From positions 1-64,000 of IMG/VR virus record IMGVR_UViG_3300032087_004307: a stretch of DNA of 64,000 bases; one strand, 5' to 3'. The notes beneath the pieces were generated by a model, which was given only the letters and a program-made list of their open reading frames with translations, made no database searches and was not told the DNA's origin. The stretch is from a virus. A program made the translations under genes and the position numbers. Below, piece after piece: positions 44,850 to 49,093 of the stretch (its first letter is position 1; each line of letters starts with the position of its first letter).

Positions 44850-45272
44850 TTATAAGGTCTTTAAGGCCTCTTTGAGGATTTTCGAACCACCTACTCTGAC
44901 GTTGATGATTCCGTTATAATAGTCGTCAGTTTCAAGTACTCGCCTCTCGAATTGCTCTCGGGCTTCTATGTAACTTGCTACTCCTCGGCTAGGGCAATAG
45001 TACAATATTTCTCTACGAAATTTGTCTTCTCCTAGTTCTAATACATCTGCATTAAGATGATCACTACTACCCCAATAAGTACGCCAGTCACTTTCTTTAG
45101 TGCCACGTCTTTTATTCTTCTTGCCTTTTAGTGGGGGTTTTGTGGTCTTAAATTTTGCTAACTTTTTACCAACATATTTTTTGTTGTTAGTTAGGTTTGT
45201 AATTAAGTAAACAAATGCTTCGCAGTCATCTGGCAGTTCTGTGACTTCTTTGTTATTATAGTGCCAGCTCAT
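44850..45272 (-). CDS. GIY-YIG domain protein (putative endonuclease)
   Basis: 140 residues. The GIY-YIG core appears as VYLITNLTNNKKYVGKKL (residues 21-38), then a basic stretch KGKKNKRRGTKESDWRTYWG and the metal-binding Glu region SYIEAREQFERRVL, ending in YYNGIINVRVGG. This form is widespread in T4-like phages and is related to Seg-type homing nucleases, but it is short and has no visible DNA-binding C-terminal module. Its ATG shares one base with the stop of the gp51-like frame (TAATG), so it is translated together with the tail-assembly genes. Whether it is a mobile nuclease or domesticated is not clear. Confidence 0.8.
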   Translation of the reverse strand: MSWHYNNKEVTELPDDCEAFVYLITNLTNNKKYVGKKLAKFKTTKPPLKGKKNKRRGTKESDWRTYWGSSDHLNADVLELGEDKFRREILYYCPSRGVASYIEAREQFERRVLETDDYYNGIINVRVGGSKILKEALKTL

Positions 45273-45508
45273 TATAAGTCTTCAGTACCTTGCTGACCAT
45301 TTTTCTTTTGAACATAATTATTTAAAACTTTGATAAATTTATTTCTTTCCATAGGACTCATTGCCCAAACTTCATTGTATGATATTTTACCTTCAGAATA
45401 GATTACCATTTCCATTACGTTAGTAATAAGTGCCTCTGACTCTTTTTTGAGCTTCTCTAGATACCCGAGAATTTCTTCGGGTTCGGCTCTTCCTAGGAAG
45501 CCGTGAAA
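45272..45508 (-). CDS. gp51-like frame, read by -1 frameshift from gp26
   Basis: 78 codons, open in the -1 frame relative to the gp26-like gene, from the slippery site to a TAA at 45274-45272. The frame has no good ribosome binding site and its first ATG is far inside (45415); upstream it is closed by a TGA only a few codons before the slip. This is the pattern of a frameshift extension, not a separate gene. The predicted fusion is about 362 residues. The visible sequence is helical (AEPEEILGYLEKLKKESEAL) and ends with ISYNEVWAMSPMERNKFIKV, which resembles short gp51-like baseplate hub assembly proteins of marine T4-like phages. Inferred role: long form of a tail-assembly chaperone acting with the tape measure protein. 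Confidence 0.68.
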   Translation of the reverse strand, partial: FHGFLGRAEPEEILGYLEKLKKESEALITNVMEMVIYSEGKISYNEVWAMSPMERNKFIKVLNNYVQKKNGQQGTEDL

Positions 45509-46359
45509 AAATTTACAGGGTCAAAATTAATACCTGCTTCAAACTCTTTAGGTCCCTTTTCAACCTCACATTCTTCACAAGTAAACATCATAGTTTTTTG
45601 TATACCAATTTTATTGACTTCTGTTACTGCTGTTTCTACTGCTTTACCAATACTGGCTTCAGTATTATCTAAAAATTCTTTAATATGATCTCTATCTGTA
45701 ATAGTTTGTTCATCTTTCCCCTTACCAATAGTAACACTATGCACAGCATCAACAATTAATTGATAGTTCATATCTGCCATTTTCATGAAACTTTCATTAA
45801 AAACTTTCAGTTTGTCCATATCGTCTGGTAGTTCACCTAAAACTTGTAAACTTCTAGAACTCTGGAAACTGGTGATTCCGGCTTCTATAGTGTTTTTGTA
45901 TTTAAACGGCTTAATAGAAATTTTTAAATTTTCTGCGGCGTCTACCTGATAAATTTCTTCTAACTCAACCATACTTTCTATAGCACCTTCAACACTTGCT
46001 ATGCCTGTGATTGAGTTTTCACAAGAAGGGCAAGGTGCTGTGACTTCAATATCGTCACCATGTGTTGCTCCTTGTACAGCAATTAGTAAAACATCTACGT
46101 CATTGGAAATCATCTCTCTGACATTTTTTACATTTGGCACACAACTCTTTATAAGTTGGCTAACGGCTTCACCATTGAGTAAAGCATCTGGATTCTTCAT
46201 TATGAGCTCGTCTTTAGCAGTCATGGGAAAGACTGGCAGTTCACCACTTTCAGGATATTCCACAATATCTTTTGTGTAAAATTTACCTCCTGAAGGTAAC
46301 CTCACATATAGTTTGGGCGATCTAAAATATTCGCTTAACGGATTTGGTGTATTTGACAT
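45493..46359 (-). CDS. 26: Baseplate hub / tail assembly protein gp26-like
   Basis: 288 residues in the zero frame. MSNTPNPLSEYFRSPKLYVRL and PVFPMTAKDELIMKNPDALL are the start of the gp26-type family in marine T4-like phages. There are two Cys pairs, APCPSCENS (near residue 112) and FTCEECEVE (near residue 263), likely binding one zinc. The last codons run over a slippery site, so part of the ribosomes should continue into the -1 frame. The gene is divergent from, and only 98 bp away from, the tape measure gene. AGGAG lies before the ATG. By position and frameshift it corresponds to the short form of the tail-assembly chaperones of other long-tailed phages; that link is inferred. Confidence 0.78.
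   Translation of the reverse strand: MSNTPNPLSEYFRSPKLYVRLPSGGKFYTKDIVEYPESGELPVFPMTAKDELIMKNPDALLNGEAVSQLIKSCVPNVKNVREMISNDVDVLLIAVQGATHGDDIEVTAPCPSCENSITGIASVEGAIESMVELEEIYQVDAAENLKISIKPFKYKNTIEAGITSFQSSRSLQVLGELPDDMDKLKVFNESFMKMADMNYQLIVDAVHSVTIGKGKDEQTITDRDHIKEFLDNTEASIGKAVETAVTEVNKIGIQKTMMFTCEECEVEKGPKEFEAGINFDPVNFFTAS
45505..45514 (-). other. Predicted -1 frameshift site
   Basis: Minus-strand codons GTA AAT TTT TTC hold two overlapping canonical heptamers: A AAU UUU (45514-45508) and U UUU UUC (45511-45505). Either slip leads into the same -1 frame. Downstream, a CGGCT/AGCCG hairpin (45503-45484) and a perfect 6-bp hairpin ACCCGA/TCGGGT (45482-45463) could pause the ribosome. The zero-frame stop is 10 nt past the site. 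Confidence 0.72.
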
Positions 46360-46385
46360 TTATTAAAACTCCTGTTAATTATTCT

Positions 46386-46393
46386 GATAAATA
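46386..46393 (+). promoter_or_regulatory. Late promoter box GATAAATA (tape measure operon)
   Basis: Plus-strand GATAAATA with a ~63-nt leader to ATG 46457, which has AGGA before it. It points toward the oppositely oriented box at 46418-46425, so the two transcripts start within each other's promoter region. Confidence 0.7.
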
Positions 46394-46417
46394 TATAAGT
46401 GATACTTATCCACAAGG

Positions 46418-46425
46418 TATTTATC
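46418..46425 (-). promoter_or_regulatory. Late promoter box GATAAATA (gp26 operon)
   Basis: Minus-strand GATAAATA with a ~58-nt leader to the ATG at 46359. Faces the plus-strand box 24 bp away. Joint late control of chaperone-like and tape measure genes is plausible. Confidence 0.7.
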
Positions 46426-46456: not shown

Positions 46457-49093
46457 ATGTCAACTATTACATATACAGATGATGGAGAACAAAAAAATGT
46501 ACCCATGTGGGCTACAGAAAGCACTCTTCAGAAACTTGTAGAAGCATTAGGTGGCAAAACTGACGATAAAAGCACAAAAACTTTAAATGAAAATTTAAAG
46601 AACTTAAATGATAATCTTAACAAGAATAATAAGGACGGCAAAAAGAATGCTGAAACTTATGAAAAAGCAGTAAAAGACTTTGAGGAAAATACAGTAAATT
46701 TAGGATTATCCTTTAGAGCAGGAATGGAAAAAACATTCGGTACTGTAGGTAAAGTTTTAGATAAGACATTGGGATTGGCCGCTTTAGTGGTGGGTACAGC
46801 TCTAACAACATTAGGTGCTAAGTTAGTTCAGACAGCAAATAATTTTGCTACACTTAGCCAAGTTGGTTTAACATTAAATGGATCAACAGCAGAAAACATT
46901 GCTAGATTTAATGAATTAGGTATGACCTCAGAGATGGCAACTCAGTTTATGAGGGATAATGCTCAAGCAGTACAGATTTTAGGTGCTAAATCGATGCCAG
47001 CTCTAATGCAGTCGTTCCAACAAGTTACAGTATTTGGTTCAGACCTTGGATTATCTTTAAAACAAACGAATAAGTTATTTGGTGATGAGATTACATTAAG
47101 AACAAACTTAATTAATTTAGGCAGATTAGATGCTAGCCAAAGAAATAGCATGATAAATCAGATTGCCAAAACCGCTAAAACACAACAGATATACTCACAA
47201 GCATTAGGTGTTAGTACAGATGCTATGAGAGATTTTGCGGCACAGGTTTTAGGTAATAACGAAATGCTAATGGCCAGTTTCTTAAGAATGCCCAATCAAA
47301 TCAGAGCTCAACTCACAACAGGCATAAGCGAATTTGTATCTGTTATGAGAGCAACAGGCGGCGAAGCAGGTGGTGAAATAGCCGCGGCTATAATTGATGC
47401 GGCCAGCATGGGAGCAATAGGGTTTAGTGATGCCGCTTTTGGATTCATCACAGTATTGCCACAATTATCAGACAACATGCAACGTGTAATTAATGACTTT
47501 AATAGTGGAATGATAAACGGTGAGCAAGCCGCAATGGCTATTACTAACGAATTAGGTAATCTTTCAGATGCAGAAAAAAACAGGGTGTTCTTACTAGCCA
47601 GGGCCGGAGATGAACAAGCAAAAGCAATGGCGAATGCTATTACTCAATTTGAACAATCTGCAGACAGAATGAAAAAACAAGGAAATACTCTGGAAGGTGT
47701 TCAGCAAGGATTCCAGGTCTTTCAGGCAGTTATAGACAAAGTAAAAGGACAGTTTAGTGCCGCTTTTAATTCCTTTATAGAAGGATTTGGATCAGTTTTT
47801 ACTAATTCAAATGATTTTGCTAATTTGTTGAAAGGCGTTACACAGGCTTTTCAACCAGTTGTTAAGGAATTGTTTGGCCTTGAGGCAGGTGCAGGAAAAA
47901 CAAGTGAAAAATTAAAAGATCTTGGAGCCGATCTTGCTGAAAAATTGTTACCTAGAATACAAAGTTTTGCAAACTGGGTTGCTGACACAATAGTTTTCCT
48001 AAAGGGATATTTTAGTCAGTTTAAAAACATGAGCATTGGTGAAATTTTGATGAGTATGCTCAAAGATGCCGGGTCAAAAATACTGGAAGGTATAAAATAT
48101 GCTCTAGATCAGGTTCCCTGGTCTAAAGTTGCTTTCTATATTGCGGCAGGTATTACAACTGCCTTTGCCGCCATTAAATTAGGTAGTATGCTTGGCTCAG
48201 CACTAGGTGGATTGTTTGGCCTGGGCAAAGGCGGAGCAGGAGCGGCCGCAGGAATGACAGCAATGGCAGGCGGATTAGCCGCATTTTCAAATCCGGCTGT
48301 AGCATTAGGTTTAGGTGCAATAACACTAGCAGTTATAGGATTAGCAGGTGCCTTTTCATTAGCCAGTTTAGGCTTTGAAGCATTTGGTAAAATGATGAAA
48401 AGCATACTAGATGGCGTGGGACCAGTAGTGGAGTCATTTGGTATAGCCATTAAAAGTGTATTTGAAGGCATAGGAAGTGTAATAGAGAGTGTGGGCGATT
48501 CCATATCAGGGATAGTAAACTCTATTGGGAACGTTATTGCAAAATATGGCGAAATGAAAGTAGGCAAAATTAATGCTGAAGCAGATGCAATGGTAAAAAC
48601 CACACAAGCCACAACAGCCGCAATAACGGATTTATCAAGTCTAGACCCGCAAAATATTATGGGACTAGCAACTGGTATTGATGCAATGGGACTAGCATTG
48701 GAAAGTTTTGCAGAAACAATGACTCCTGGATTTTTAGACACCATAGGACAAGGTTTTGCAAGTCTAATAGGCGCTGATTCTCCAGTACAAGCAATTATAC
48801 AATTATCTAATGAAGCAGATCCTGTTAAAATTATGGATGTTGCTAAAGCAACTATGGCCACAAATGCCGCAAATGCAGGTGCAACAGCATTAGATCCATC
48901 ATTAAGTCAAAATAGCACAGATAACAGTAGCCAAACTAATACTGTTAATAATACAACAAATAACTCAAGCACTTCAGATACTAATATAGATCTTTTAGAA
49001 ACATTAAATGTATTAGCAAATCAAAACGATTTACAGTTAGAAGCACTTAAAAAGTCTAATAGAATATTAGGTGAAATATCTAATAAGCAATAA
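46457..49093 (+). CDS. 29: Tail tape measure protein (gp29 position)
   Basis: 878 residues from ATG 46457 (MSTITYTDDGEQKNVPMWAT), preferred over an in-frame GTG at 46439 because AGGA lies just upstream of the ATG. A Lys/Asn-rich helix covers residues ~50-85; a hydrophobic segment LGLAALVVGTALTTLGAKLV lies near residue 115; a long helical region continues to ~500. Two strongly hydrophobic stretches follow near 560-600 and 610-650 (IAAGITTAFAAIKLGSMLG, ALGLGAITLAVIGLAG), as expected of a tape measure that meets the host membrane. The C-terminus has an Asn/Ser/Thr linker and a final helix. T4 gp29 is 590 residues; a longer tape implies a longer tail. Next to the chaperone-like gene, as usual in tailed phages. 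Confidence 0.78.
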   Translation: MSTITYTDDGEQKNVPMWATESTLQKLVEALGGKTDDKSTKTLNENLKNLNDNLNKNNKDGKKNAETYEKAVKDFEENTVNLGLSFRAGMEKTFGTVGKVLDKTLGLAALVVGTALTTLGAKLVQTANNFATLSQVGLTLNGSTAENIARFNELGMTSEMATQFMRDNAQAVQILGAKSMPALMQSFQQVTVFGSDLGLSLKQTNKLFGDEITLRTNLINLGRLDASQRNSMINQIAKTAKTQQIYSQALGVSTDAMRDFAAQVLGNNEMLMASFLRMPNQIRAQLTTGISEFVSVMRATGGEAGGEIAAAIIDAASMGAIGFSDAAFGFITVLPQLSDNMQRVINDFNSGMINGEQAAMAITNELGNLSDAEKNRVFLLARAGDEQAKAMANAITQFEQSADRMKKQGNTLEGVQQGFQVFQAVIDKVKGQFSAAFNSFIEGFGSVFTNSNDFANLLKGVTQAFQPVVKELFGLEAGAGKTSEKLKDLGADLAEKLLPRIQSFANWVADTIVFLKGYFSQFKNMSIGEILMSMLKDAGSKILEGIKYALDQVPWSKVAFYIAAGITTAFAAIKLGSMLGSALGGLFGLGKGGAGAAAGMTAMAGGLAAFSNPAVALGLGAITLAVIGLAGAFSLASLGFEAFGKMMKSILDGVGPVVESFGIAIKSVFEGIGSVIESVGDSISGIVNSIGNVIAKYGEMKVGKINAEADAMVKTTQATTAAITDLSSLDPQNIMGLATGIDAMGLALESFAETMTPGFLDTIGQGFASLIGADSPVQAIIQLSNEADPVKIMDVAKATMATNAANAGATALDPSLSQNSTDNSSQTNTVNNTTNNSSTSDTNIDLLETLNVLANQNDLQLEALKKSNRILGEISNKQ

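Follow-up and report, generated by a model that had tools for sequence, protein, structure and literature searches.

Does the gp26 locus of T4-like marine phages make two proteins from one start by a programmed -1 frameshift, and how would such a system relate to T4, in which 26 and 51 are separate genes? A conserved tail-assembly chaperone frameshift was reportedly described by Xu, Hendrix and Duda in 2004. G-T frameshifting is called conserved in long-tailed phages 'except T4' in the available part of PMC5009743. The question arises here from a stretch of viral DNA of 64,000 nucleotides (the window; positions 1 to 64,000 of IMG/VR record IMGVR_UViG_3300032087_004307), for which the original prediction joined a gp26-like and a gp51-like frame by such a frameshift, next to the tape measure gene, and took the products for a chaperone pair. 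Judged from sequence, it is highly probable that one start yields two proteins by a -1 slip and that the pair acts as tail-assembly chaperones.

Organization of the locus in the window

The features of the locus are collected in Table 1. The first frame is preceded by an AGGAG, 9 nt ahead of the ATG at 46359..46357. Its assignment to gp26 is firm: the product matches PF12322 (T4_baseplate) with an E value of 2.8e-13 and 50.5 bits, against a curated cut-off of 24.5, which makes it a family match, and it also matches phrog_150 (E 3.2e-18). The complete record of 65,737 bases, which may itself be a fragment, contains one PF12322 match and has the slip motif, and thus does not follow the T4-type two-gene arrangement.

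Table 1. Features of the gp26 locus in the window
Feature	Coordinates	Strand	Remark
AGGAG, likely ribosome binding site of the gp26-like gene	46369..46373	minus	by eye
gp26-like gene, 0 frame, short product	46359..45493	minus	288 aa; stop included in coordinates
Slippery heptamer A_AAU_UUU	45508..45514	minus	in phase X_XXY_YYZ
Slippery heptamer U_UUU_UUC	45505..45511	minus	in phase X_XXY_YYZ
0-frame stop TAG of the gp26-like gene	45495..45493	minus	
Extension in the -1 frame past the slip, forming the C-terminal domain of the long product	45272..45505	minus	77 codons plus stop 45274..45272
Two predicted RNA hairpins	45503..45484 and 45482..45463	minus	one predicted fold
SegE-type GIY-YIG endonuclease gene	44850..45272	minus	PF19835, E 5.1e-34
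Divergent neighbour, probable tape measure gene	46457..49093	plus	878 aa

The gp26-like gene ends in the codons GTA AAT TTT TTC ACG GCT TCC TAG. The first four of these (45516..45505 in plus-strand coordinates, read on the minus strand) hold two overlapping in-phase slippery heptamers, just as predicted. The main slip site that we infer is U_UUU_UUC, which is overlapped by A_AAU_UUU and lies 9 nt ahead of the stop. According to the available text of PMC4066793, U_UU.C ranks second among tetramers in E. coli, heptamers of the type H_HH.U_UU.Y are among the most shift-prone or efficient, and U_UUG is weak among tetramers.

The -1 frame, preceded by a stop at 45523, is open over positions 45520 to 45275 and comprises 82 codons up to its TAA. 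It thus does open just before the slip, and 77 codons follow the slip, not 78 as counted earlier. Its end at the start of the next gene is borne out, as the TAA overlaps the ATG of the SegE-type endonuclease gene (TAATG). This homing-type endonuclease (PF19835) is present in a single copy in the 65,737-base record, and its gene is a neighbour outside the frameshift system.

The gene on the other side of the gp26-like gene is adjacent, as the original prediction had it, and divergent. Its product matches a tail protein family (phrog_1204, E 5.5e-4) and, in blastp, the gene at the same place in phage MIJ3 (E 4e-10). These matches are weak; the gene is a probable tape measure gene. In phage HTVC008M, the gp26 locus is one small gene away from, and upstream of, a gene that matches tape-measure PHROGs (E 8.4e-12).

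The two hairpins noted after the slip site do appear in the predicted fold of a 103-nt stretch (-24.0 kcal/mol, z -1.25). When 68 nt are folded (z -1.97), the second hairpin alone is left, and a 41-nt fold has a z of -1.40. As frameshift stimulators, the hairpins were rejected: the folds outdo shuffled sequences by a small margin only, and the presence of the first hairpin varies with the stretch that is folded. A family alignment of 17 sequences revealed no conserved structure downstream of the slip (-2.72 kcal/mol, with 1 of 13 pairs changed on both sides). The hairpins are probably incidental.

Conservation of the slip motif and the -1 frame

Alignment of the gp26 loci of related phages, which had been proposed as a check, found both the heptamer and the -1 frame to be widely kept. 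Both heptamers are present in all of the 24 closest IMG/VR relatives of the window, and their -1 frames are 82 to 88 codons long. Scans of IMG/VR yielded 248 loci, including a cyanophage-type set (the best 80 of 593) and a jumbo-type set (the best 80 of 329). Two loci, L048 with an early stop and L055 cut at a contig end, were left out, and the 246 classed loci comprise 211 with UUUUUUC, 11 with UUUUUUU, 3 with AAAUUUU only, 20 with U_UUC only and 1 that is cut. In terms of the 245 assessable loci, UUUUUU[C/U] is found in phase in 222, AAAUUUU as the sole heptamer in 3, any heptamer in 225, and the U_UUC tetramer alone in 20, all of the Ackermannvirus type; every one of the 245 carries on in the -1 frame. 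Clustering at 90% identity gives 154 clusters, with 137 UUUUUUC, 5 UUUUUUU, 3 AAAUUUU and 9 tetramer cases.

In all loci of the cyanophage-type set (best 80 of 593), UUUUUUC begins exactly 10 nt ahead of the stop, and none of the 18,704 other codon positions of their gp26 genes has an in-phase U6[U/C]. The codon before TTT TTC in this set is AGT (40 loci), TCT (20), GCT (11), AAT (8) or GAT (1), so that its final base is T throughout, and other Phe-Phe pairs in the same genes are coded by TTTTTC in 2 of 79 cases. The jumbo-type set (best 80 of 329) has UUUUUUC in 75 loci, UUUUUUU in 1 and AAAUUUU only in 3, with 1 locus cut by a contig end, and the -1 frame is open for at least 50 codons in all 79 uncut loci. 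Eight of the 11 HTVC008M-type loci have UUUUUUU and one has UUUUUUC; one has an early stop and one is cut. The Ackermann-type set (n=53) is divided into 33 loci with a U6 heptamer and 20 with U_UUC only, and includes one extension of fewer than 35 codons.

The -1 extension is kept in the tetramer-only phages of the Ackermannvirus type (named records L036, L037, L039, L040 and L140, and 20 of the 53 IMG/VR loci). A TAATG is found at the stop in 3 of the 5 named phages and in 2 of the 20 IMG/VR loci. A weaker slip and re-initiation are proposed as alternatives for these loci.

A tblastn search found gp26 relatives in 63 named phage records, including the jumbo phages RaK2, 121Q, GAP32 and MIJ3. 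Thirty named phages were picked by hand from the match lists to span families, and are therefore not a random sample; they overlap with the IMG/VR list (RaK2, 121Q, GAP32, HTVC008M, Vibrio YC). In 21 of these 30, UUUUUU[C/U/G] is found in phase and followed by a -1 extension (Atu_ph07, SCTP-2, Phosso, MIJ3, RaK2, HTVC008M, P-SSM2, S-CAM22, S-PM2, phiM7, nt-1, Aeh1, Aeromonas G2, Desulfovibrio 7757, RHph_I34, 121Q, GAP32, Vibrio 2.275, XaC1, XacN1 and CM1). Five have U_UUC only (FKP10, UTK0005, Vibrio YC, Vibrio K362 and Cygsa01), and four are of the T4 type (T4, RB43, Aeromonas 31 and Krischvirus LF73P4). The heptamer of RHph_I34 is UUUUUUG, which counts against the slip reading in this phage, since U_UUG is weak in the part of PMC4066793 available.

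Start codons and selection in the -1 extension

In the window, the -1 frame has no ATG, GTG or TTG in the first 30 codons after the slip, and the earliest is the 31st codon. The 24 close relatives have none in the first 12 codons of the -1 frame, and the extensions of MIJ3 and Desulfovibrio 7757 have none at all. In the cyanophage-type loci (best 80 of 593), some such codon is present within 8 codons after the slip in 79 of 80, and ATG is the fourth -1-frame codon in 59 of 80. It is possible that cyanophages additionally make a separate small protein by re-initiation.

The -1 extension is under purifying selection. After the 0-frame stop, the extensions of the window clade have a mean pS of 0.635 and a mean pN of 0.316, with pN below pS in 91 of 91 pairs and a mean pN/pS of 0.49. 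No such excess is seen when this stretch is read in either of the remaining frames (pS 0.378 and pN 0.388; pS 0.266 and pN 0.408). For the cyanophage extensions (best 80 of 593 loci), pS is 0.644 and pN is 0.153 over 2,924 pairs; 3 of the 80 extensions were left out because they run into a contig end, as were 2 of 2,926 pairs for a pS of at most 0.05. Nine members of the window clade were chosen for having no early start, and in these the 18 codons past the 0-frame stop, which precede any start, have a pooled pS of 0.540 and a pooled pN of 0.180 (pooled pN/pS 0.33), with pN below pS in 36 of 36 pairs. As these codons are selected and are out of reach of an ordinary start in their own frame, they provide the strongest single argument for slipping. 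The original prediction withstands the findings by which it was to fall, an independent second gene with its own start and ribosome binding site, or a heptamer that is not conserved: heptamer and -1 frame are widespread, and in the window clade no start lies near the beginning of the second frame.

Relation to T4 gp26 and gp51

T4 gp26 and gp51 both match PF12322 (E 8.8e-64 and 3.9e-52) and match each other in blastp (E 2e-6), and residues 147-246 of T4 gp51 match phrog_634. The C-termini of T4-type gp51 proteins correspond to the cyanophage-type -1 extensions (hhalign 97.6%, E 3.3e-12). For the extensions of the jumbo set, hhalign gives 36% (E 3.8e-4) against gp51 and 76% (E 2.4e-5) against the cyanophage set. 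Direct matches of the window extension to phrog_634 or T4-type gp51 are weak; in the window clade, 2 of 14 members match phrog_634, with a best E value of 0.0023. The description of the second frame as gp51-like is thus secure for the cyanophage version and weak for the window itself, where the link to gp51 is indirect, by a profile link mainly through the cyanophage set.

In T4, genes 26 and 51 are divergent neighbours. The two are separate genes, as originally stated; gp51 is a gp26 paralogue with the extension fused in frame, and not the second half alone. A role of gene 51 as the plain downstream partner of gene 26 is ruled out, because the genes are divergent and paralogous. In RB43 (L142, 4001..5294), the gp51-like and gp26-like genes are arranged in tandem on one strand, unlike the divergent pair of T4. 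Among 28 named records, 25 have one PF12322 copy and two, T4 and RB43, have two copies; no PF12322 match was found in SCTP-2.

The poly-U heptamer is absent from 11 of 11 T4-type gp26 genes, and the Phe-Phe pair of T4 gp26 is coded TTC TTT. T4-type gp26 genes do hold other patterns: T4 and L147 have an in-phase X_XXY_YYZ lying 103 nt ahead of the stop, RB43 has one at 16 nt, and L146 and L152 each contain a U_UUY tetramer. In a tree of 53 rows, T4-type gp26 and gp51 form one clade (99/95), within which gp51 is grouped with support of 100/99, and the tetramer-only phages also form a clade (99/99). Quick trees without the long rows recover the same T4 clade (SH-aLRT 96 and 97). The rows were chosen by hand, with a broken gp51 of 120 aa (L155) and SCTP-2 left out, and the root is not fixed. 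With this proviso on the root, the simplest history is that an ancestral slip was replaced by duplication in the T4 branch.

Predicted structures

The gp26 model (pLDDT 82.4) resembles mostly viral library proteins named baseplate hub or baseplate, together with uncharacterised proteins, some of about 500 residues. The latter include proteins of 507 to 553 residues from RSF1, RP12, Special G and Eowyn (Foldseek E 2e-6 to 4e-5), phages which we take to be phiKZ-like. By this resemblance, it is possible that these are tail chaperones. The AlphaFold2 model of the extension is all-helical (pLDDT 83.9). A sequence search for relatives of gp26 or the extension with solved structures gave none below E 0.16, and the gp26 model has no fold match in the PDB at E<=0.001, the best Z of 7.6 being to unrelated chains.

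Discussion

The computed basis of the proposed mechanism consists of both frames, the conserved slip motif, the purifying selection, the absence of a usable start in the window clade, and the T4 paralogy. Most ribosomes would stop at the TAG and release gp26, and a fraction would slip back by one base on A_AAU_UUU / U_UUU_UUC to make a gp26-extension fusion of 362 residues. Holding the tape measure protein would fall to the N-domain that both forms share, and the helical C-domain of the long form would recruit tail subunits or the hub. In the T4/RB43 branch, two genes would take the place of the slip, gp26 as the short form and gp51, in which a gp26 copy is joined in frame to the extension, as the long one. 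Frameshifting at the gp26 locus is very likely real, the slipping being what we infer from the kept motif and frame, and the majority of the family members sampled seem to produce their short and long forms in this way. The role as tail-assembly chaperones is likely, because of the position of the locus, the T4 gp26/gp51 paralogy and the analogy to lambda G/GT.

The analogy to lambda extends to a short protein and a -1 extension from one start, a heptamer close to where the first frame ends, and the vicinity of a probable tape measure gene. However, the gp26 locus encodes another protein family, PF12322, and the neighbouring gene is divergent in the window and in several jumbo relatives. T4 shares the N-domain family and, in gp51, the C-terminus that corresponds to the cyanophage extension, but has two paralogous genes without the poly-U heptamer in place of one gene with a slip.

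The -1 frame is annotated as a separate small gene in, for example, Phosso, HTVC008M, P-SSM2, phiM7, 121Q and RHph_I34. Such a gp51 would be translated by stop-start re-initiation, for which the early start codons of the cyanophage loci could serve, as could the TAATG at the 0-frame stop of 121Q, nt-1, Vibrio YC, Vibrio K362 and Cygsa01, and the heptamer would matter little. Yet re-initiation leaves the invariant in-phase heptamer unexplained. It also fits poorly with the window clade, in which the codons that precede any start are conserved under purifying selection, and with the start-free extensions of MIJ3 and Desulfovibrio 7757. We therefore regard it as very unlikely, except in those Ackermann-type phages in which the heptamer is gone, where it may apply. 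The probability that sequencing or assembly error has split one long gene is negligible: single-base indels in a T6 run are common, but hundreds of records share this break, and the distance from the beginning of the run to the stop ranges from 7 to 40 nt.

The frameshift could also be real and the pair not chaperones, but part of the baseplate hub, the second form being structural. The annotation of gp26 as baseplate hub suits this idea, as does the genetic work placing gp26 in the hub that is cited in the accessible part of PMC3004832, and the structure searches gave no fold link to known chaperones. However, Table 2 of the same source has gp26 and gp51 as hub assembly chaperones, with gp51 outside the final particle. 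A short and a long product encoded close to a probable tape measure gene fit the lambda G/GT plan (as far as PMC5009743 is available), and the title of Vladimirov 2022 refers to T4-like phages as having tail assembly chaperone genes. A hub component is thus unlikely, and a chaperone pair made by -1 frameshifting is the preferred reading.

The two-gene chaperone pair of T4 is already published (Vladimirov, Gautam, Davidson 2022); as cited in the available text of PMC10885494, that work found short and fused long chaperone genes in some T4-like phages, without frameshifting. It may also cover the frameshifting relatives, and their newness is thus not claimed here. The literature matches listed, mostly titles and the starts of abstracts, contain no gp26 frameshift in cyanophages or giant phages, and the available parts of PMC3711429, PMC11948020, PMC11364771, PMC11821841 and PMC3121705 have nothing on this gene pair. 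The accessible part of PMC9024508 names both proteins as possible chaperones and adds nothing more on the pair.

In the available part of PMC3037559 (Sullivan 2010), cyanophage gp51 is described as short, without the first 200 residues, and gp51 as absent from Aeh1. The cyanophage gp51 annotated as 'baseplate hub assembly catalyst' (phrog_634) is the -1-frame extension called from an internal start; it was taken there as an independent, truncated gp51, whereas it is here the second half of a gp26 fusion. In Aeh1 (L137, ~3717), a like extension is found unannotated in the -1 frame behind UUUUUUC. Frameshifting at gp26 would explain both the truncated look of cyanophage gp51 and its apparent lack in Aeh1.

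On the evidence of the sequences compared, it is probable that the poly-U -1 frameshift of gp26 is ancestral and dominant across the wider T4 superfamily, including the giant phages, that the T4 pair is a later duplication which froze the frameshift product as gp51, that the Ackermannvirus-type site has worn down to U_UUC, and that T4 is the exception, with gp51 misannotated in many marine relatives. The gp26 frameshift, very likely real, would be a broad case of the known tail-chaperone frameshift and would account for T4 as the exception. If so, the 'except T4' clause shrinks to the T4/RB43 branch, and ocean and giant phages follow the rule. Gene annotation would change in many genomes, and the family would offer a natural comparison between a slip site and a gene duplication as means of setting a protein ratio.
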